This document shows positions 2,990 through 39,019 of a stretch of 64,000 bases of DNA, piece after piece. The stretch covers positions 6,650,334-6,714,333 of the forward strand of contig NZ_CP037422.1 of the NCBI RefSeq assembly GCF_007748175.1. Direction: 5' to 3'. Under the pieces are notes generated by a model. That model made no database searches. It saw nothing but the letters and a program-made list of their open reading frames with translations, and was not told the origin of the DNA. Numbering within the stretch: position 1 is the first letter of the stretch; each line of letters begins with the position of its first letter. This DNA comes from Gimesia aquarii (GTDB taxonomy: Bacteria; Planctomycetota; Planctomycetia; Planctomycetales; Planctomycetaceae). The translations under genes were made by a program, and so were the position numbers.

Positions 2990-4285
<1,296 letters not shown>

Positions 4286-4332
4286 AAGTCTCTTTAAAGA
4301 TGATCAGGAAGATCGTCAAGAGATCACTTTTG

Positions 4333-4355
4333 GATCAGCACGTCTGATCTTGTTT
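4333..4355 (+). terminator. Possible weak terminator or attenuator after larC
   Basis: GATCAG and CTGATC (4333-4338 and 4344-4349) form a perfect 6-bp stem with a 5-base loop, followed by TTGTTT. It lies 48 bp after larC and just before the ribosome binding site of the next gene, so it may be an attenuator rather than a full stop. Confidence 0.4.
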
Positions 4356-4380
4356 GGAAGTAAAGGATGACTTACCAATC

Positions 4381-4914
4381 ATGTTTAATTTAAGTGACCC
4401 CAATGTCATACTGACAGGTATATTATTGATTGCAATTGCATGGTCATTAAAGAAGAATTTTCGCATGCAAAAGCGCGTACGCGATCGTGATCCGTTACAA
4501 GAAGCAAAACACGAAATTGCCCGAACCGAACAAAAACAAGTCAACCGGCTCAATCAACTTGAAGTCAAGCTCTTTGATTACGGTCGAGAAGTAGAAGCGC
4601 GTTCCGATGACCGCCTGCGAGTCCTTGATGAGTTATTGCAGGATGCAGACCGAGAGATTAATCGACTACGTCAGCAACTGGCTCTCACCCAACAGAATTC
4701 CAGCGAACCTACTAATCAACCGGGACCAGATATTTCAATGTATGAGAGCTCTCGAAAAATCAGTGCATCACTTGAACAGAGATCAATGATTGTTTTCCTC
4801 AGCCAGGCAGGATTTTCAGTACAGGAAATCAGTAACTGTTTTCAACACAGTGTGTCTGAAATAGAAACCATCCTGACTGAAGAAAATGAACAACACAATA
4901 CAGATGTTGCATGA
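4381..4914 (+). CDS. Small membrane-anchored coiled-coil protein with C-terminal HTH-like segment
   Basis: A 177-residue protein if read from ATG 4381; a TTG at 4354 in the same frame is less likely. AAAGGA lies 13 bases before the ATG. Residues 7-24 form one transmembrane helix, followed by a basic stretch and a coiled coil (about residues 40-105) rich in Glu, Arg and Gln. The last third contains FLSQAGFSVQEISNCFQHSV, which resembles the helix-turn-helix segment at the end of DUF6115/YlxL-type proteins. The likely topology is an N-terminal anchor with a cytoplasmic coiled coil. The function is unknown. It follows larC by 95 bp on the same strand. Confidence 0.65.
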   Translation: MFNLSDPNVILTGILLIAIAWSLKKNFRMQKRVRDRDPLQEAKHEIARTEQKQVNRLNQLEVKLFDYGREVEARSDDRLRVLDELLQDADREINRLRQQLALTQQNSSEPTNQPGPDISMYESSRKISASLEQRSMIVFLSQAGFSVQEISNCFQHSVSEIETILTEENEQHNTDVA

Positions 4915-13876: not shown

Positions 13877-14114
13877 TCTTCGTTCTCCATTTCGTATTAG
13901 GTTCTTACAATTATGCGCAGTGCACAAATTAAAACGGATCACGAATACCGCAGTCCTGGAGGGACGACGAAGCAAACTCTCGTTTTGATTCGCCTTGGAT
14001 CATTCGTAGCCTGTCCTATTTAATAACAATTTAAGAACAGGATTGCCAGTAATCCGCTAGAATTCACACTAAATCCTCATAAAATATTATCACCTACTCC
14101 CAATTCACAATTTG

Positions 14115-15452
14115 ATGAATAAACAAGAACAGATAGAAATTCCAAAGAACCCTGAGCTACTCATTGTTGGAGCGAGCACACGAGCTGCCGCATTTTCTGC
14201 CCTGCGTGCCCAATTCCAGCCGCTCTGTGTAGATCAATATGCCGACCAGGATCTTCGTGAAATTGCGCAAATGCTTCCCAAAACAAGCGATGAATCAAAT
14301 TGGTTGCAGGACCTTGACGAACGTTCTTCAATGGAGTGGATCTATACTGGGGGAATGGAAAATCATCCGAAATTTATCGAGCAAATCAGTCTAAAACATC
14401 AGCTGCGAGGCTGTGATCCAGAAAGTCTGTCTTATGCCCGGGATCCTTTTTTCCTAGAAGAAATCCTGTCTCGAACAAAAGTCCAAACTCCCACCTGTCT
14501 TACGGCTGACTCCAAGCCAGATGGAAATTTGAAATGGTTGAGTAAACCAACGCATGGTTCAGGAGGCCACGGAATCCATTTTGTGGACGCGACCTATTCA
14601 AAGTCTCTGAGAAACAAAGCTTGCTATATACAGCGCTACCAACCTGGAATTCCACTTTCGGCCCTGTTTATTGCTTTTCGCCACGTCTCTGTTTTAGTGG
14701 GTATTTCCATGCAATTTGTTGGAAATGCCGCCCTCAATGCGAAACCATTTCAATTTTGTGGTGGAGTCACACTTAATTCTTTTCCATCCTCATGGAATCA
14801 TGCCATACAAGAACTGGGGCAAACAATTGCACAACGGTGTCACATACAGGGCATTTTTGGCTGTGATCTCATCCTGGACCCAATGCAAGAAAATCGAATC
14901 TGGTTGAATGAAGTTAACCCGCGCTATACAGCGTTAACTGAATTATTTGAACTACAATCTCAGCTTCCAATCCTATATTGGCACATGGCCGCCTGTCGCA
15001 CCTTTGAAGAGCAAAAGATCGACTTTGAGACTCCGTTACAACTACAAAAACAGCTTCTAGAAGCCCAAAACCAGACGCGACCTCAAATTGCCAAAGGGAT
15101 TCTCTACGCGGCTCAGGATACGACTTGTCCTGACATTGATTGGAACCACAATTTGTCAAAAGACCTCTACCAAATCCCGGAACTCGCTGATATCCCCCAT
15201 CCAGGAACAGTCATTCAAAATGGTTCTCCCATCTGTTCAGTTTATGGAGTCGGAGAGAACCACCAATCCTGTCTCCAGTCACTGGCTGAGAGAATCGTCG
15301 AGTATACGCGGCTTTTTCAAGCGGATTCCCGGAGAGAAAATAACGCGAAGGCCATCATTAACAAGCTATGGCCTGAAATGAAAACAGAAAATTCCCTTTT
15401 TTCCCGTTTTTTCACAAGCGAGAATGAATCGCATTCGTTTCTTGAAGATTAA
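14115..15452 (+). CDS. ATP-grasp ligase (COG2232-like) of the H4MPT cluster
   Basis: A 445-residue ATP-grasp protein from ATG 14115. The N-terminus has a Rossmann-like LLIVGASTRAAAFSALRA; the ATP-grasp core shows KPTHGSGGHGIHFV near residue 140 (phosphate-binding loop) and FGCDLILDP with WLNEVNPRYTALTEL near 250-280, the magnesium-binding Asn/Glu site. Proteins of this kind are annotated as predicted ATP-dependent carboligases and occur in bacterial methanopterin gene sets, where they may add a carboxylate or glutamyl group during cofactor synthesis. That role is inferred from context: it is divergent from fae by about 240 bp. No standalone biochemical evidence can be read from the sequence. 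Confidence 0.8.
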   Translation: MNKQEQIEIPKNPELLIVGASTRAAAFSALRAQFQPLCVDQYADQDLREIAQMLPKTSDESNWLQDLDERSSMEWIYTGGMENHPKFIEQISLKHQLRGCDPESLSYARDPFFLEEILSRTKVQTPTCLTADSKPDGNLKWLSKPTHGSGGHGIHFVDATYSKSLRNKACYIQRYQPGIPLSALFIAFRHVSVLVGISMQFVGNAALNAKPFQFCGGVTLNSFPSSWNHAIQELGQTIAQRCHIQGIFGCDLILDPMQENRIWLNEVNPRYTALTELFELQSQLPILYWHMAACRTFEEQKIDFETPLQLQKQLLEAQNQTRPQIAKGILYAAQDTTCPDIDWNHNLSKDLYQIPELADIPHPGTVIQNGSPICSVYGVGENHQSCLQSLAERIVEYTRLFQADSRRENNAKAIINKLWPEMKTENSLFSRFFTSENESHSFLED

Positions 15453-16935: not shown

Positions 16936-17634
16936 CTACCAGGGATTATTCCGCTGTTGGTATGCCTGAAAGTTAAAAAAGGCAAATAAAGCAAACATAA
17001 TGCCTGCAAAGCGATATTGCTCTTTGAAAAAATAAAAGGCTAGTGCGCCCGCAGCGACCATTGAAATCTGTAGAGCCAACACATCACCTCGATAACGTTT
17101 GACGGCTTTGCAGATATCCTCACAAATGTGTCCCCCATCCAGGGGCAGCACGGGAGCGAGATTAATCAATCCCCAATATAAATTGATGAAATACAAGTAA
17201 TGGAATGTAGTACTAACATAGATTGCCCCTTGCTGATCCAAGTTATTCCAAAAACCGAACCTTATGGAAATGTATTTAAAAAACATGACTGCTCCGAGCA
17301 GTCCGAAACCGGCCAATGGTCCTGCTGCTGATACAATGATTGACCGCTGGGTTGTCATCCCCGAATAAGGCTGAAACGTGGCCAGACCTCCAAAATGATA
17401 TAACATAATTTCAGGGGGCCAACCAAAGTGTTTTGCCATGACGGCATGACCCAACTCATGAATCAGAATTGATACAAAAACACAGGCAATCCAGATCAGC
17501 GTCATTTTTGGATCATCGGGGTACCATCCCATGAACGCTGACACAGCCCAGAATAATGGATGTACGCGGACTGGAATCCCAAACAGAGAGAAACGCAAAT
17601 CAAATTCTGTGGGATTAACGTTCCCCAGCATCAT
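16936..17634 (-). CDS. Site-2 protease family (M50) zinc metalloprotease
   Basis: A 232-residue polytopic membrane protein. The zinc site HELGH is at residues 59-63 inside a transmembrane helix, and the third ligand segment is in NLAPVLPLDGGH near residues 158-170, the NPDG-type motif of the M50 family. About five or six hydrophobic helices are visible. M50 enzymes cut transmembrane substrates such as anti-sigma factors or regulators. This one lacks PDZ and CBS domains, so it belongs to the small rhomboid-free, SpoIVFB-like group. Two anti-sigma genes are in this window, but no direct link can be shown. Confidence 0.88.
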   Translation of the reverse strand: MMLGNVNPTEFDLRFSLFGIPVRVHPLFWAVSAFMGWYPDDPKMTLIWIACVFVSILIHELGHAVMAKHFGWPPEIMLYHFGGLATFQPYSGMTTQRSIIVSAAGPLAGFGLLGAVMFFKYISIRFGFWNNLDQQGAIYVSTTFHYLYFINLYWGLINLAPVLPLDGGHICEDICKAVKRYRGDVLALQISMVAAGALAFYFFKEQYRFAGIMFALFAFFNFQAYQQRNNPW

Positions 17635-17908: not shown

Positions 17909-17936
17909 TTGACGCAGTTCACGAAAAGGATACGAT
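17909..17936 (+). promoter_or_regulatory. Predicted sigma-70-type promoter of the retron RNA
   Basis: TTGACG (17909-17914) and TACGAT (17931-17936) are separated by 16 bases, matching the consensus at five and four positions. Transcription would start near 17943, about ten bases before the a1 arm of the retron RNA, which is where a retron promoter is expected. Confidence 0.6.
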
Positions 17937-17952
17937 TTGCAGTCTTGATGGG

Positions 17953-18122
17953 CAGTGGGTCGCACAAGTTCTGACTCTAACTGAATCCTGACGGATCACT
18001 TAGAGTACTGCGGGGATACCCCGTGGGAGAAGTATTGACCATTCTACGATATGTGAAGTATCGCTACGATAGACTCTTATCGTAGCAATACTTCGCTACA
18101 GGATCGGTTGTGCGGCCCGCTG
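17953..18122 (+). ncRNA. Retron msr-msd RNA
   Basis: Just upstream of the retron-type reverse transcriptase. Arm a1 CAGTGGGTCGCACAA (17953-17967) pairs over all 15 positions with a2 TTGTGCGGCCCGCTG (18108-18122), with two G-U wobbles. G17968, immediately after a1, is the natural branching guanosine. The msr part then has a stem-loop at 17974-18006 (ACTCTAA/TTAGAGT outer stem, ATCC/GGAT inner stem) and another at 18008-18026 (CTGCGGGG, ATA loop, CCCCGTGG). The msd part has a 17-bp hairpin with one mismatch (18055-18071 with 18078-18094, loop GACTCT). Reverse transcription from G17968 would copy leftwards from about 18107. Size (170 nt), order msr-msd-RT and structure all match retrons. The exact msDNA ends are not known. 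Confidence 0.87.
18055..18094 (+). repeat. msd hairpin of the retron
   Basis: GAAGTATCGCTACGATA and TATCGTAGCAATACTTC form a 17-bp stem with one mismatch and a 6-base loop (GACTCT). It is the longest stem in the retron RNA and the expected template for the DNA hairpin of msDNA. Confidence 0.88.
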
Positions 18123-18132
18123 GTCATCTTTG

Positions 18133-18153
18133 TTACTTTATTGAGTAAAGTAA
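18133..18153 (+). promoter_or_regulatory. Hairpin between retron RNA and reverse transcriptase gene
   Basis: TTACTTTA and TAAAGTAA form a perfect 8-bp inverted repeat with a 5-base loop, lying just after a2 and before the RT start. A second weaker stem, AACCTG with CAGGGTT (18165-18181), would cover the AGGG ribosome binding site of the RT gene. Together they may separate RNA from RT expression or limit RT translation. Confidence 0.5.
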
Positions 18154-18186
18154 TACCATATTTTAACCTGACTGCAGGGTTTCTGA

Positions 18187-19479
18187 ATGGGCATATTTCA
18201 ATTCATACGCCGGCTCCTGTTTGGTTCATCACCAAGTAGACCAATTGCGCCTGCAGATACCCATTCAGCCCTGAAACAAATTAAGCCTTCTCGGCCACGT
18301 CGCAAACCACGTCTACAACCACTGCGATTTAACAAAAAGAAAAATCGCGATTCACCTGACATGGTTGATGTATCACCGTTGCCGTATAAGCTTGCACGCC
18401 CGTATGAACTGCTGCGATACCGATCACAATCTGATCATTATCTTGATATGACTCAAGATGTGGATCATCAAAAACTAAGACAATACCATCTACCCGCGTT
18501 TTCTACACCCGAAGAAATTGCAAACTGGCTCGAATACCCTCTCGGAAAACTGGCATGGCTAACTCACCGATTTAATCAAGCTGATCGACCGGATGATGTG
18601 AATGAATCGCATTATACTTATCATTGGCTTCCAAAACGGAATGGCTATCGGCTAATTGAATCCCCGAAACCCTTTATGAAAATGGCTCAACAACAGATTT
18701 TACAAGACATACTCAATAAAATCCCAGCGCATCCAACTGCACATGGATTCGTCACCGGCCATTCTCAGGTGACCAATGCAGTACCTCATACAGGCAAACG
18801 TGTGGTAGTGAAATTTGACCTGGAAAACTTTTATGCCAGTGTCAAATTCTCTCGCGTCATTTCCATCTATCGCAGTGTTGGCTACTGTCGTGAAGCTGCG
18901 ATTTGGCTCGCGCGGCTGACGACGACTGCCATTCCCATGAGCATGCCTTTTCCTGATGGAAGTTTGCGACCACTATATCCTTATCTCTCTCGCCATCTTC
19001 CGCAAGGCGCACCAACATCCCCTGCACTGGCGAATCTGTCTGCATTTTCCCTGGACGTCAGGCTCTCAGGTTTAGCGCGATCGTTTGATGCAGAATACAC
19101 ACGCTATGCCGACGATTTAACCTTTTCCGGTTCCGACCAATTTTTGCGTTCTCTGCGTGTCTTTATTCCACTGGTGGAGCAAATCATTCGGTCAGAACGA
19201 TTTCAGGTCAATCAATCGAAACGACGCATCCTCCGAAATAACCAACAACAAAAAGTGACTGGCGTTGTTGTGAATGAACACACGAATGTGCCGCGCAAAG
19301 AATTCGATCTGTTGAAAGCGATCCTCACGAATTGCATTCGAAAGGGGCCTGCCAGCCAAAACCGGGAAGGTCACCCCGATTTCGCCAGTCATCTCCGAGG
19401 ACGCGTGGCCTATGTTCAACAACTGAACCCAAATCGTGGCCAACGTTTACTCCAGCTTTATCAGCAAATCCGCTGGTAA
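18187..19479 (+). CDS. Retron-type reverse transcriptase
   Basis: A 430-residue reverse transcriptase that starts at ATG 18187, with AGGG 8 bases before. The polymerase motifs are complete: motif A FDLENFY (D211), motif B LPQGAPTSP (271-279) and catalytic YADD (307-310). Retron-specific signatures are also present: region X NAVPH (197-201, NAxxH) and region Y VTG (357-359). The end carries HLRGRVAYVQQLNP, usual for the thumb of retron enzymes. The first ~100 residues are an extension, basic at 31-52, not found in short enzymes such as that of Ec86; length and the TRYADDLTFS context recall myxobacterial retron enzymes. Maturase, HNH and CRISPR domains are absent, arguing against a group II intron or Cas1-linked enzyme. 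It makes msDNA from the RNA just upstream. Confidence 0.93.
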   Translation: MGIFQFIRRLLFGSSPSRPIAPADTHSALKQIKPSRPRRKPRLQPLRFNKKKNRDSPDMVDVSPLPYKLARPYELLRYRSQSDHYLDMTQDVDHQKLRQYHLPAFSTPEEIANWLEYPLGKLAWLTHRFNQADRPDDVNESHYTYHWLPKRNGYRLIESPKPFMKMAQQQILQDILNKIPAHPTAHGFVTGHSQVTNAVPHTGKRVVVKFDLENFYASVKFSRVISIYRSVGYCREAAIWLARLTTTAIPMSMPFPDGSLRPLYPYLSRHLPQGAPTSPALANLSAFSLDVRLSGLARSFDAEYTRYADDLTFSGSDQFLRSLRVFIPLVEQIIRSERFQVNQSKRRILRNNQQQKVTGVVVNEHTNVPRKEFDLLKAILTNCIRKGPASQNREGHPDFASHLRGRVAYVQQLNPNRGQRLLQLYQQIRW

Positions 19480-19654
19480 TTTCACTACATGAATTTGCCT
19501 TGGTATGTTGGCTCTGATTGATGCATAATAGGTATTCTACTACCCTTCTTGCTGGAAAAAACTGTGATTGTTTAATCCCAATTTAATTGGAATCCGTTTT
19601 ATACACTAATAAGTCATTTTCATGCCATACTCTCACAAAATGTAAGGAATTATT

Positions 19655-20422
19655 GTGGGTGGATTTTTAAATTACCTGGTAAAACCGCTGTTAAAACCAT
19701 TAACGCGTTTTATTGTCGGGCTTATTGCGATCCCGATTTTTCATCTGATCCTTAACAAGGTTATTCGTGTTCAGGAATTAGATGCAGAATTGGAAAAGGA
19801 TCTCGAACAATGGTTTCGCGGTTCTTTGTTACTTCTGGTAGCGACAGTGAATATGGAAGCAGCTCTGTTTGCCTGGGTACCTGACCTATTTGACAAGGTC
19901 TCCCCAAGCCTACAGGGAATCGAGAGTATAATACTGACAGGATTTAGGATCTTGCTGGCTATTAGTGTGATTGAAGCCATGCCCGATCAGGAATTATTTT
20001 CAATCATTCACCCTGGTCCCCCCAAGCTATTGTTATCAAAAAAATATGGCATTTTCCGGGAACTGAGAGAAAAATGGCGAGCCATTCTGAAGGGGGTTGT
20101 GTGCCAGCATATCAATCGCTCCTCCCCTGTATTTGCGATTTTGTCAGCAATCATCCCCGACATGATAGGTTGGGTCTGTTATGGAATAGCGATTACACAA
20201 TACTTGATTATCGGCTTAGTCACTTCGCGTGATCGTGCGCTGGATGTGCTCTCAGAGTTTGACCGTCAGGTGAATATTCGCCGTCGTGAACTAATTGAAG
20301 AATTTGATTTGAGCGATAAAGAAGTCAAATCAGTAGATCGTAGGAGATGTGAGGAAGAAGCAGAACAAAATGCGCTTTCCCTAGATCCGGCGGAAGGAGA
20401 TGACCCCAAAGTGTCTGCTTGA
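19655..20422 (+). CDS. Multi-spanning membrane protein of unknown function, downstream of retron RT
   Basis: A 255-residue protein starting with GTG 19655, with AAGGA about 9 bases before. Hydrophobic helices are visible at about residues 17-35, 57-76, 90-107 and 158-188, with a conserved-looking HPGPPKLLL loop (119-127) and a charged C-terminal tail (190-255) that is probably cytoplasmic. I do not recognise the family. It follows the retron reverse transcriptase by 175 bp on the same strand and stops 15 bp from the convergent topA gene. It may be a retron partner, since several retron effectors are small membrane proteins, or an unrelated resident protein. Its orderly sequence with no low complexity suggests a conserved cellular protein, which argues somewhat against the first option. 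Confidence 0.7.
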   Translation: MGGFLNYLVKPLLKPLTRFIVGLIAIPIFHLILNKVIRVQELDAELEKDLEQWFRGSLLLLVATVNMEAALFAWVPDLFDKVSPSLQGIESIILTGFRILLAISVIEAMPDQELFSIIHPGPPKLLLSKKYGIFRELREKWRAILKGVVCQHINRSSPVFAILSAIIPDMIGWVCYGIAITQYLIIGLVTSRDRALDVLSEFDRQVNIRRRELIEEFDLSDKEVKSVDRRRCEEEAEQNALSLDPAEGDDPKVSA

Positions 20423-20436
20423 CCTGAATCAGCCGT

Positions 20437-23181
20437 CTATTCTTCAGCAGTTTTTTTCTTGGCGGATTTCTTCTTAGCTGCTTTTTTCGTTGTCTTCTTT
20501 TTGGCGGCTGCTTTTTTCGTGGTTTTCTTCGCAGCTGCTTTCGCTTTCTTGGCAGGTGTTTTCTTTGCGGCTGTTTTTTTCGCCTTGGTCCCCGCTGATT
20601 TCTTAGTTGTCTTTTTCTTGGCGGCCTTCTTCTTTGTACCTTTTTTGGCTGCTTTCGCTTCCAACCATTCGAGCGCCTGTTCTAGCACCACATTTTCAAC
20701 TTCGTACCCTTTGGGAATGGTCGCATTGATTTTGCCATGTTTTACATAAGGCCCGTAGCGACCATCAAAAATGGCAACCGTTTCTTCGTCTTCCGGATGT
20801 TTTCCTAATTCACGAATGGGTGTCGGTGCACTTCGTTGACGCGCCTGCTTTAAGAGTTCTACAGCACGAGGTAACTCAATCGTCAGAATGTCATCATCCT
20901 TCGTCAGAGATTTGTAGACCTTGTCGTGCAAGACATAGGGACCGAAGCGACCAATGCCCGCGTTGACTTTCTTTCCTGTTTCGGGATGCTCACCCAAAAA
21001 ACGTGGCAGACTCAAGTATTTGAGCGCCTCTTCCAGACCGATCGTGTCCGGGTCGACCGTCTTGGGAATACTGACGCGTTTTGGTTTTGGTCCATCTTCA
21101 ATCACATCCCCCAATTGCAGGTAGGGACCAAAAGGACCAAATAACTTGTAAATGGGCGTGTTTTCTTCAGGATGCATCCCGAGTGACTTCGGCCCTTCAC
21201 TTTTCTGGCGAATGAGTTTTTCTGCAAGTTCATTGGTGAGATCTGCTGGTGCGATATTGTCGGGAATCGAAGCAGAAACAGGTTCTTCTTCTGCACCGTC
21301 AGTGACATACGGCCCATAACGACCGACGCGCACTGCCGACTCAATCCCTTCTAAATTAAGCGTACAGATTTCCCGCGCATCGATTGTTTCTTCCTTGGAT
21401 TTGACCTGCTCATCGAGGCCTTCTTTTCCTCGGTAGAATTGGTTCAAATACGGTAACCGATCCCCTTCGCCGACGGCGATATCGTCTAATTCCTGCTCCA
21501 TGGCGGCCGTAAATTGCAGGTCCACCAGATTGGGGAAGAACTGTTCCAGTAAGCGAGTGACTGCCAGTGCGGTAAATGTGGGCACAAGTTGGCTACCTGA
21601 CTTTTTCACATAGCCGCGGTCCTGAATGGTCCCGATGATGGAAGCGTACGTACTCGGTCGTCCCACCCCTTCACTCTCCAATTTCCGCACGATAGTCGCT
21701 TCTGTATAGCGCGCGGGGGGTTTTGTTTCGTGCTTGAGGGGATCAACCTGGTTGGTTTCGAGGGCCTGATTTTCCTCCAGCGGTGGCAGCATCGATTCAC
21801 TGTCGTCCAAAGCGGCTTCCGGATCGTCAACCCCTTCAACGTAGGCACGGAAGAAGCCAGGAAATTCCACATGGCGTCCTGTGGCACGAAACTCAGCATT
21901 ATCGGCGGTGATGGTCACTGTTTGAAAACGCAGCTTGGCTTCTTCCATCTGTGTGGCCATCGTCCGTTTCCAGATCATTGCATACAGTTTGGCTTGTTGT
22001 CCCTTTAGTCCGATCTCTTCTGCCGTTTTCATCGACTTGCCAGCGGGTCGAATCGCCTCGTGTGCTTCCTGGGCGCCCTTGGACTTCGTATCAAATCGGC
22101 GTATCTCCGGGTTGAGGTAATCTTTGCCATATAAATCTTCAATCCGATCTCGCGATGCAGAAATCGCTTCATTCGAGAGATTCACGCTGTCAGTACGCAT
22201 ATAAGTAATGTGGCCATCTTCGTATAAACGCTGAGCAACCTGCATCGTTTCACGGGCCGACATGTTTAACTTGCGGTTCCCCTCCTGTTGCAACGTGCTG
22301 GTAGTAAACGGCGCAGGGGGCTTGCGTGACTGCAGTCGTTGTTCGACTGAAGTGACAGTCCAATCAGACTTTTTGACACGTTCGAGCAATTCGTCTGCCT
22401 GCTGCTCATTCAACAACAACACATCCGCATCGGTCTTCAGCTTGCCTGTGGACTCGTCGAAATCTTTACCGCTGGCAACTTTTTTGCCTCCGACCGCTGA
22501 GAGCATCGATTCAAATTCGGCTCCATCAGAAGTCTTTAATAATGCCTTCAAGTCCCAATAGGTACCACTTCGAAAAGCAAGTCGTTCCAGCTCCCGCTGG
22601 ACCAGAATTCGGACCGCGACAGACTGCACACGCCCAGCAGAGAGTCCACGGGCAACTTTTTTCCAAAGTAGGGGGCTTAATGTAAATCCATACAAACGGT
22701 CCAGTACACGTCGCGTCTCCTGGGCAGAGACCAGATTCAAATCAAGTTCCCGCGGATTAGCAATCGCTTCCTGAATGGCATCTTCTGTGATTTCAGAGAA
22801 AACCATGCGTTTTACGGGTACTTTTGGTTTCAATAGCTCAGTCAGATGCCAACCGATACTTTCACCTTCACGGTCTTCGTCAGTCGCAAGAATGAGCTCT
22901 TCGGCATCCTTTAGCGCGTCTTTGAGTTCCTTTACCGTCTTTTTCTTCTCTTTGGGTACCAGATAATAAGGCTCAAATTCTGACTCGGTATTGACCCCCA
23001 AGGTAGCCCATTTGTGCTTTTTCTTGAATTCGGAAGGAACATCAGAAGCCTTTGCAGGCAAATCACGTACGTGCCCCATACTGGCCAGGACCCGATACTT
23101 ACTGCCTAAATAGCCACCGATTTTCTTGGCTTTGGCCGGTGATTCAACAATCACCAATGCTTTCAGCTTTTTCTTTGCCAC
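20437..23181 (-). CDS. topA: DNA topoisomerase I with Lys/Ala-rich C-terminal tail
   Basis: A 914-residue type IA topoisomerase that relaxes negatively supercoiled DNA. The N-terminal Toprim domain contains VIVESPAKAKKI (10-21) and the acidic TDEDREGE (100-107); the active-site tyrosine is Tyr327 in HITYMRTDS. The C-terminal part has at least four topoisomerase C-terminal repeats (GRYGPYV, GPFGPYL, GRFGPYV, GRYGPYV) instead of the four-cysteine zinc fingers of E. coli TopA. The last ~73 residues are almost only Lys, Ala and Thr (AAKKKTTKK type units), resembling histone H1-like tails and probably raising DNA affinity or processivity. It is convergent with the membrane-protein gene upstream in the window. 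Confidence 0.97.
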   Translation of the reverse strand: MAKKKLKALVIVESPAKAKKIGGYLGSKYRVLASMGHVRDLPAKASDVPSEFKKKHKWATLGVNTESEFEPYYLVPKEKKKTVKELKDALKDAEELILATDEDREGESIGWHLTELLKPKVPVKRMVFSEITEDAIQEAIANPRELDLNLVSAQETRRVLDRLYGFTLSPLLWKKVARGLSAGRVQSVAVRILVQRELERLAFRSGTYWDLKALLKTSDGAEFESMLSAVGGKKVASGKDFDESTGKLKTDADVLLLNEQQADELLERVKKSDWTVTSVEQRLQSRKPPAPFTTSTLQQEGNRKLNMSARETMQVAQRLYEDGHITYMRTDSVNLSNEAISASRDRIEDLYGKDYLNPEIRRFDTKSKGAQEAHEAIRPAGKSMKTAEEIGLKGQQAKLYAMIWKRTMATQMEEAKLRFQTVTITADNAEFRATGRHVEFPGFFRAYVEGVDDPEAALDDSESMLPPLEENQALETNQVDPLKHETKPPARYTEATIVRKLESEGVGRPSTYASIIGTIQDRGYVKKSGSQLVPTFTALAVTRLLEQFFPNLVDLQFTAAMEQELDDIAVGEGDRLPYLNQFYRGKEGLDEQVKSKEETIDAREICTLNLEGIESAVRVGRYGPYVTDGAEEEPVSASIPDNIAPADLTNELAEKLIRQKSEGPKSLGMHPEENTPIYKLFGPFGPYLQLGDVIEDGPKPKRVSIPKTVDPDTIGLEEALKYLSLPRFLGEHPETGKKVNAGIGRFGPYVLHDKVYKSLTKDDDILTIELPRAVELLKQARQRSAPTPIRELGKHPEDEETVAIFDGRYGPYVKHGKINATIPKGYEVENVVLEQALEWLEAKAAKKGTKKKAAKKKTTKKSAGTKAKKTAAKKTPAKKAKAAAKKTTKKAAAKKKTTKKAAKKKSAKKKTAEE

Positions 23182-38944: not shown

Positions 38945-39019
38945 GGTGGGTATAGCTCAGTTGGTTAGAGCGCCGGATTGTGATTCCGGAGGTCGCGGGT
39001 TCGACCCCCGTTACTCACC
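38945..39019 (+). tRNA. tRNA-His (GTG anticodon)
   Basis: A complete cloverleaf: acceptor GTGGGTA pairs with TACTCAC, D-stem GCTC/GAGC, anticodon stem CCGGA/TCCGG with loop TTGTGAT and anticodon GTG at 38980-38982, and T-arm GCGGGTTCGACCCCCG. An extra G at position -1 (38945) faces C73 (39019), the identity element of bacterial tRNA-His. CCA is not encoded. Confidence 0.97.

Follow-up and report, generated by a model that had tools for sequence, protein, structure and literature searches.

Layout of the locus

We analysed a 64,000-nucleotide window of the Gimesia aquarii genome (positions 6,650,334-6,714,333 of a 7.22-Mb single contig), in which a structured RNA and a reverse transcriptase (RT) gene lie between a divergent M50 metalloprotease gene and mem255, which encodes a membrane protein. 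The features are as follows, in window coordinates.

16936-17634, minus strand: M50 metalloprotease gene (Pfam), a divergent flank outside the retron unit
17909-17936, plus strand: predicted sigma-70-like promoter (sequence and conservation)
17947-17967, plus strand: a1 arm (fold; G.G mismatch 17952/18123; compensatory changes in 44 homologues)
17968, plus strand: candidate priming (branching) guanosine, conserved in homologues, its role proposed from known retrons
17974-18006, plus strand: msr stem-loop 1 (SL1; fold and alignment), its length and sequence varying by genus
18008-18026, plus strand: msr stem-loop 2 (SL2), CTGCGGGG-ATA-CCCCGTGG, the most conserved hairpin, with GGGG/CCCC invariant
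18027-18052, plus strand: msr-msd linker with a conserved TTG (alignment)
18053-18096, plus strand: msd hairpin (fold), highly variable in sequence with its structure kept
18097-18107, plus strand: CACAGGA-type conserved joint before a2 (alignment), the presumed start of reverse transcription
18108-18128, plus strand: a2 arm, followed by a T run in several genomes
18187-19479, plus strand: retron RT, 430 aa, with an N-terminal helix, a basic linker and the retron RT fold
19655-20422, plus strand: mem255, an all-helical membrane protein; flanking gene and possible partner

A preliminary description of this DNA had proposed a retron with its parts in the order a1-msr-msd-a2-RT, and that order was confirmed, with the RT at 18187-19479. 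The arms it named, a1 CAGTGGGTCGCACAA (17953-17967) and a2 TTGTGCGGCCCGCTG (18108-18122), do pair at 15 of 15 positions, two of them as wobbles. A wider fold gave a closing stem of 20 bp rather than the inner 15 bp alone: beyond a G17952.G18123 mismatch, five further pairs join 17947-17951 with 18124-18128, and the folded RNA spans 17947-18128, about 180 nt. Both msr stem-loops are present (SL2 has 8 bp), and the guanosine reported directly 3' of a1 is G17968. The msd hairpin also exists, although not as the perfect 17-bp helix described; it measured 19 bp with one C.A mismatch. The folding energy of 17953-18122 was -84.9 kcal/mol, compared with -46.2 ± 3.8 for shuffled sequences (z = -10.3; 0 of 200 as good), and when the 600 nt preceding the RT were dinucleotide-shuffled 200 times, only one shuffle held an arm pair this long. 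No Rfam family reached its gathering score for the retron RNA, the only match in the window being a tRNA (38946-39019), and the literature searched yielded no planctomycete retron RNA, so within these searches the label 'undescribed' stands for the RNA.

The promoter-like boxes lie where they had been reported, TTGACG at 17909-17914 and TACGAT at 17931-17936 with a 16-nt spacer. Among 16 Gimesia genomes, mean identity was 0.96 in the promoter, 0.98 in a1 and 0.97 in a2, against 0.51 and 0.55 in the immediate flanks, giving the conserved block sharp edges. In most other genera TTGAC and TANNAT-like boxes are similarly placed upstream of a1, within surrounding sequence that differs.

The RT start codon lies 58 nt downstream of the RNA on the same strand. 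The protein carries the NAxxH motif of region X (NAVPH, N197-H201), YADD (307-310) and VTG (357-359), all invariant or nearly so in 50 RT homologues, and RTs from different genera are approximately 47-60% identical. Its AlphaFold model (pLDDT 90) had the Ec86 retron RT (7v9x) as top Foldseek match (E = 7e-22), and PDB profiles matched the protein as well. PADLOC models scored it at 435 bits for RT_other, 412 for RT_outgroup and 348 for RT_XIII; as the RT_XIII score is the lowest of the three, we do not place it in type XIII. The clade itself is represented in PADLOC as RT_other/RT_outgroup, and it is from PADLOC alone that we judge how far it has been described. Profile searches and the model revealed no fused effector domain, the protein being all RT past residue ~60.

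Upstream of that point, the RT begins with a hydrophobic to amphipathic helix (residues 3-12) followed by a disordered basic linker to residue ~60, and an MG[LF]FxFLxxLLFG-like start recurs across the family. In three genomes from three genera (G053, G056 and G120) the helix is replaced by a transmembrane-type hydrophobic stretch. That the same end has two different solutions suggests that tethering is important, and from these sequences the N-terminal helix probably anchors the RT to the membrane. It is the transmembrane-like replacements that carry this argument, since the amphipathicity of the helix was weakly significant on its own (102 of 2000 column permutations scored as high). Among the fully covered Gimesia copies of the RT, a single one lacks an open frame. 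The G001 copy (L048) has an apparent frameshift near residue 33, within the disordered linker, which may reflect decay or a sequencing error.

Conservation of the RNA across the family

The preliminary description had suggested covariation in related planctomycetes as a check, and had named an intact RT whose upstream a1/a2 and msd stems neither persist nor covary as the outcome that would speak against it. We found the opposite: the a1/a2, SL2 and msd stems are kept by compensatory changes in more than 30 genera. In an alignment of 44 homologues made with MAFFT from sequence alone, using no structure, standard pairs occupied 95.8% of cells, falling to 39-44% when partners were slid by one to three columns. 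Two-sided compensatory changes occurred in 25 of 34 pairs, and none of 500 shuffles reached any of five measures; there were 218 two-sided cells, compared with 57.5 in shuffles and 26-49 with the partners slid. Such changes were seen in 16 of the 20 pairs of the a1/a2 helix and in 6/6 scored pairs of the msd helix, and the msd hairpin persists though its sequence differs almost everywhere across homologues. SL1 is conserved by position only, whereas SL2 and msd are conserved by covariation. By this comparison the structure of the RNA is under selection. The junction between a1 and the candidate priming G reads AAG in 71 of 72 homologues (AAGC in 40, AAGA in 20 and AAGT in 11), and the lone exception, GAGA, still keeps the G.

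A covariance model built from the 44 sequences was used to scan 120 genomes of the family, Planctomycetaceae. Matches of the model on the reverse strand are echoes of the near-palindromic stems and were left out of the counts. The RNA was found in 78 of the 120 genomes, at about one per genome (the source genome has a single match), and the cognate RT in 80. Both were present in 78 genomes, the RT only in two, the RNA only in none and neither in 40 (Fisher P = 7.5e-30 over 120 genomes, ignoring kinship). The RNA goes with the RT, every one of the 78 RNA-bearing genomes carrying its cognate, and in the two RT-only genomes (G050 and G156) the contigs stop just upstream of the RT. By genus, the RNA is present in 41 of the 58 sampled; the count is 41 and not 42 because one match (G167) is weak and of a sister kind. 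Among 392 genomes sampled across the phylum, the strong matches all fell within the family, and weak ones (39-55 bits) occurred in two other families. One locus (L161; G067 C274:3933-4081 and 4252-4400) has a tandem pair of RNA copies upstream of one RT.

In one genus, g4 (G019, G112 and G137), the RNA lies among unrelated genes and the RT at another locus. Both are conserved in the three species; the fold and the promoter-like boxes of the RNA are retained, and a T run follows a2. The arrangement suggests, from sequence, that the retron RNA is able to function in trans. For Retron-Nex1, msr-msd copies standing alone, with no RT close by, are on record (PMC6868368).

Genomic site and inheritance

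All 16 same-genus genomes searched were matched, two of low completeness by fragments only, and wherever the site is assembled in Gimesia the gene order is constant: MLE, M50, RNA, RT, mem255, topA. Across the family, mem255 directly follows the RT on the same strand at 39 loci and lies behind an insertion at two more; the divergent M50 gene is upstream of the retron at 32 loci, and the full arrangement M50-[RNA-RT]-mem255 occurs at 23. The insertion, of ~2.4 kb, separates RT from mem255 in G013 and G016 (L035 and L036) and carries one gene that is small and lipoprotein-like and one that is prepilin-like (DUF1559-style), both named by inspection.

mem255 is found in most genera of the family, whereas every other family sampled lacks it. 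It has invariant MPDQ and HPGPP motifs and gave no match to Pfam, NCBIfam or PADLOC models and no fold match. It is present in 100 of the 120 family genomes, 75 of the 80 with the RT and 25 of the 40 lacking it (P = 3.6e-5, ignoring kinship), and in several genera it is unlinked from the RT. At six loci of RT-lacking genomes (L194, L198, L199, L200, L202 and L203) M50 and mem255 are directly adjacent and divergent; on comparison, these six junctions are empty sites. The simplest reading of the sequences is that an RNA-RT pair entered, or left, the M50/mem255 interval, both genes being flanks. The only linked genes found in a search for a dedicated effector were M50 and mem255, and since these also stand side by side without the retron, the unit appears to be RNA plus RT with no dedicated neighbouring effector. 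mem255 had at first been favoured for that part, as it follows the RT in 39-41 loci, and was demoted by the 25 RT-lacking genomes and the empty sites.

Several observations concern local divergence at the site. Between G000 and G002 (L037), most flanking genes are 97-99% identical at the protein level, whereas the 5' half of the RT, the RT-mem255 gap and mem255 are just 55-84% identical in DNA (window 18051-18950 and 19401-20450), around a 95-97% identity island in the RT palm region; the mosaic looks like allele replacement. Similar divergent patches affect mem255 alone in G012/G001 and in G003/G010. Elsewhere in the window, an ATP-grasp protein (14112-15452) evolves very fast in Gimesia, with a mean identity of 55% against 93% for topA; by inspection, its gene neighbours resemble formaldehyde-activating enzyme and methylene-H4MPT dehydrogenase.

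We compared RT divergence with that of topA. Pairwise distances were correlated (Spearman 0.39; 1 of 2000 permutations as high). Both trees come from quick searches, and many of their branches are weak. Within that limit, five changes on the topA tree are needed to explain where the RT is absent, RT-lacking genomes are interspersed among RT-bearing ones, and some groupings recur in both trees, for example G070, G042, G113, G059, G101 and G068. G060 is placed differently in the two trees, so some horizontal transfer is likely; this genome probably acquired its RT that way. The sequences are best explained by inheritance that was mostly vertical, with several losses and an occasional transfer.

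Interpretation and comparison with known systems

The locus has the features by which retrons are recognised: the RT motifs, an upstream ncRNA with paired a1/a2, a G after a1, and msr followed by msd hairpins. In the mechanism we propose, the sigma-70-type promoter at 17909-17936 would drive an RNA of ~180 nt whose a1 and a2 ends pair, and the downstream RT would bind it through the msr hairpins. Priming from the 2'-OH of G17968, the RT would copy from ~18107, near the CACAGGA joint, back through msd; RNase H trimming would follow, and the product would be a single-stranded DNA some 60-75 nt long, branched and linked to RNA. The steps after RNA folding are taken from established retron biochemistry (PMC6868368).

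Given selection on the RNA, its promoter, the RT motifs and fold, the co-occurrence, the synteny and the empty sites, all established by sequence and comparison, we think it very probable that this is a functional, msDNA-producing retron of two components, RNA and RT, with no dedicated effector beside it, and that, as one joint proposition, the pair is an ancestral unit of the planctomycete family, passed on by what appears to be mostly vertical descent and lost several times. Known retrons have a priming context of mostly TAGC, with some CAGA, CAGC, GAGC and ACGC (PMC6868368); the AAG[CAT] context found here is unlike these and counts against a functional retron, as do the failure to find an effector, the G001 frameshift and the G060 tree conflict.

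Two other accounts of the RNA fare poorly. It could be a cis-acting leader (an attenuator or riboswitch) of the RT mRNA that is not reverse transcribed: it precedes the RT start codon by 58 nt, with both on the same strand, and the T run after a2 in some genomes could make the a1/a2 stem a terminator. We judge this very improbable, since in g4 the RNA stands away from the RT with its fold and promoter conserved, which speaks against a mere RT leader, and since the architecture and the adjacent RT, with its retron-specific NAxxH and VTG, are of the retron type. Least credible of all is a decayed or purely selfish remnant without function. The G001 frameshift and the several losses in the family would suit it, but the RNA arms are 0.97-0.98 identical in Gimesia against 0.51-0.55 in the flanks, compensatory changes occur family-wide, and the RT is open in all but one fully covered Gimesia copy.

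The remaining alternatives concern what a functional retron would do here. Should there be an effector, mem255 and a partner encoded elsewhere are the two leading candidates. A three-part system in which mem255 is a dedicated membrane effector restrained by RT-msDNA, as in membrane-effector retrons, would account for its position directly downstream on the same strand at 39 loci (and behind the insertion at two), its co-occurrence with the RT (75/80 versus 25/40), the apparent membrane tethering of the RT, and the mosaic divergence that mem255 shares with part of the RT in G000/G002. It is nevertheless unlikely: one would not expect a toxic effector to persist once its antitoxin is gone, yet 25 genomes keep mem255 without the RT, with six examined empty sites beside M50; mem255 is also unlinked from the RT in several genera, and it matches no known effector family and no fold. 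An anti-phage retron whose effector is encoded at another genomic locus is a possibility that we entertain tentatively. Phage defence is the main role of the retrons studied so far (PMC12548924), locally divergent mosaic alleles between close relatives fit an arms race, and PADLOC files the RT among defence RTs. On the other hand, the retron is near-universal, single-copy and at fixed sites, unlike sporadic defence islands; its flanks are ordinary genes; and viral contigs gave no relative of the RT or mem255 and no match to the RNA pattern tried. Just as tentatively, the functional retron may be a domesticated, effector-less one, in which a membrane-anchored RT and its msDNA serve conserved envelope sensing or regulation rather than a mobile anti-phage suicide module. 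We give roughly equal odds to a housekeeping role and to sensing of phage or stress through mem255 or a partner elsewhere.

The prevailing view of retrons today is of accessory anti-phage toxin-antitoxin modules. The one described here is near-core in a bacterial family, often at an ancestral site, with its RNA under strong selection and no toxin beside it, and lends itself to studying roles of retrons other than anti-phage suicide; what chromosomal msDNA does for its host becomes testable by deletion in a cultured bacterium. For retron engineering, the covariation set provides dozens of natural RNA/RT pairs to draw on, and g4 supplies a naturally split pair. The preliminary description had missed how widely the retron is conserved in the family, that it lacks a dedicated effector, and which genes flank it.

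The closest precedent for common, vertically inherited retrons is in the myxobacteria (PMC6868368; PMC8867640), where msDNA was found in 27 of 28 strains and the retrons were judged to be vertically inherited (PMC6868368). Mx162/Sa163 (Retron-Mxa1 and Retron-Sau1) share with the planctomycete retron an extended RT N-terminus and the order msr-msd-RT. However, Mx162 has a 162-nt DNA and a CAGC context, compared with a 44-nt msd hairpin and AAG[CAT] here, and the N-terminal helix, the fixed M50/mem255 site and the planctomycete host are further differences. The resemblance to Mx162-type retrons, drawn from published features, is a lead only. Retron-Eco1 (Ec86) has the closest solved RT fold (7v9x) and the same a1-msr-msd-a2-RT layout. 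The two RTs are 27% identical over the structural match, the planctomycete one having the extra N-terminal helix and linker, and the RNA and neighbouring genes are unlike. Among PADLOC groups, RT_other, RT_outgroup and RT_XIII are the best family matches and were matched by all 50 aligned family RTs; these groups label the RT only, and no effector was found beside the RT of the window.

A sister planctomycete clade, 'b' (L056, L057, L058, L060, L183, L187, L189 and L190), has RTs that fall in the same PADLOC group (for example L056, L057 and L183). Upstream of these RTs is an RNA that matches weakly and resembles ours in its SL2, CGGGG-N[UA]A-CCCCG, and no shared effector neighbour was seen at the loci examined. 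Unlike the RTs described here, those of 'b' have a different N-terminus of ~140 aa, occupy other genomic sites and form a separate clade (support 100). By sequence comparison, 'b' is a second undescribed retron group.
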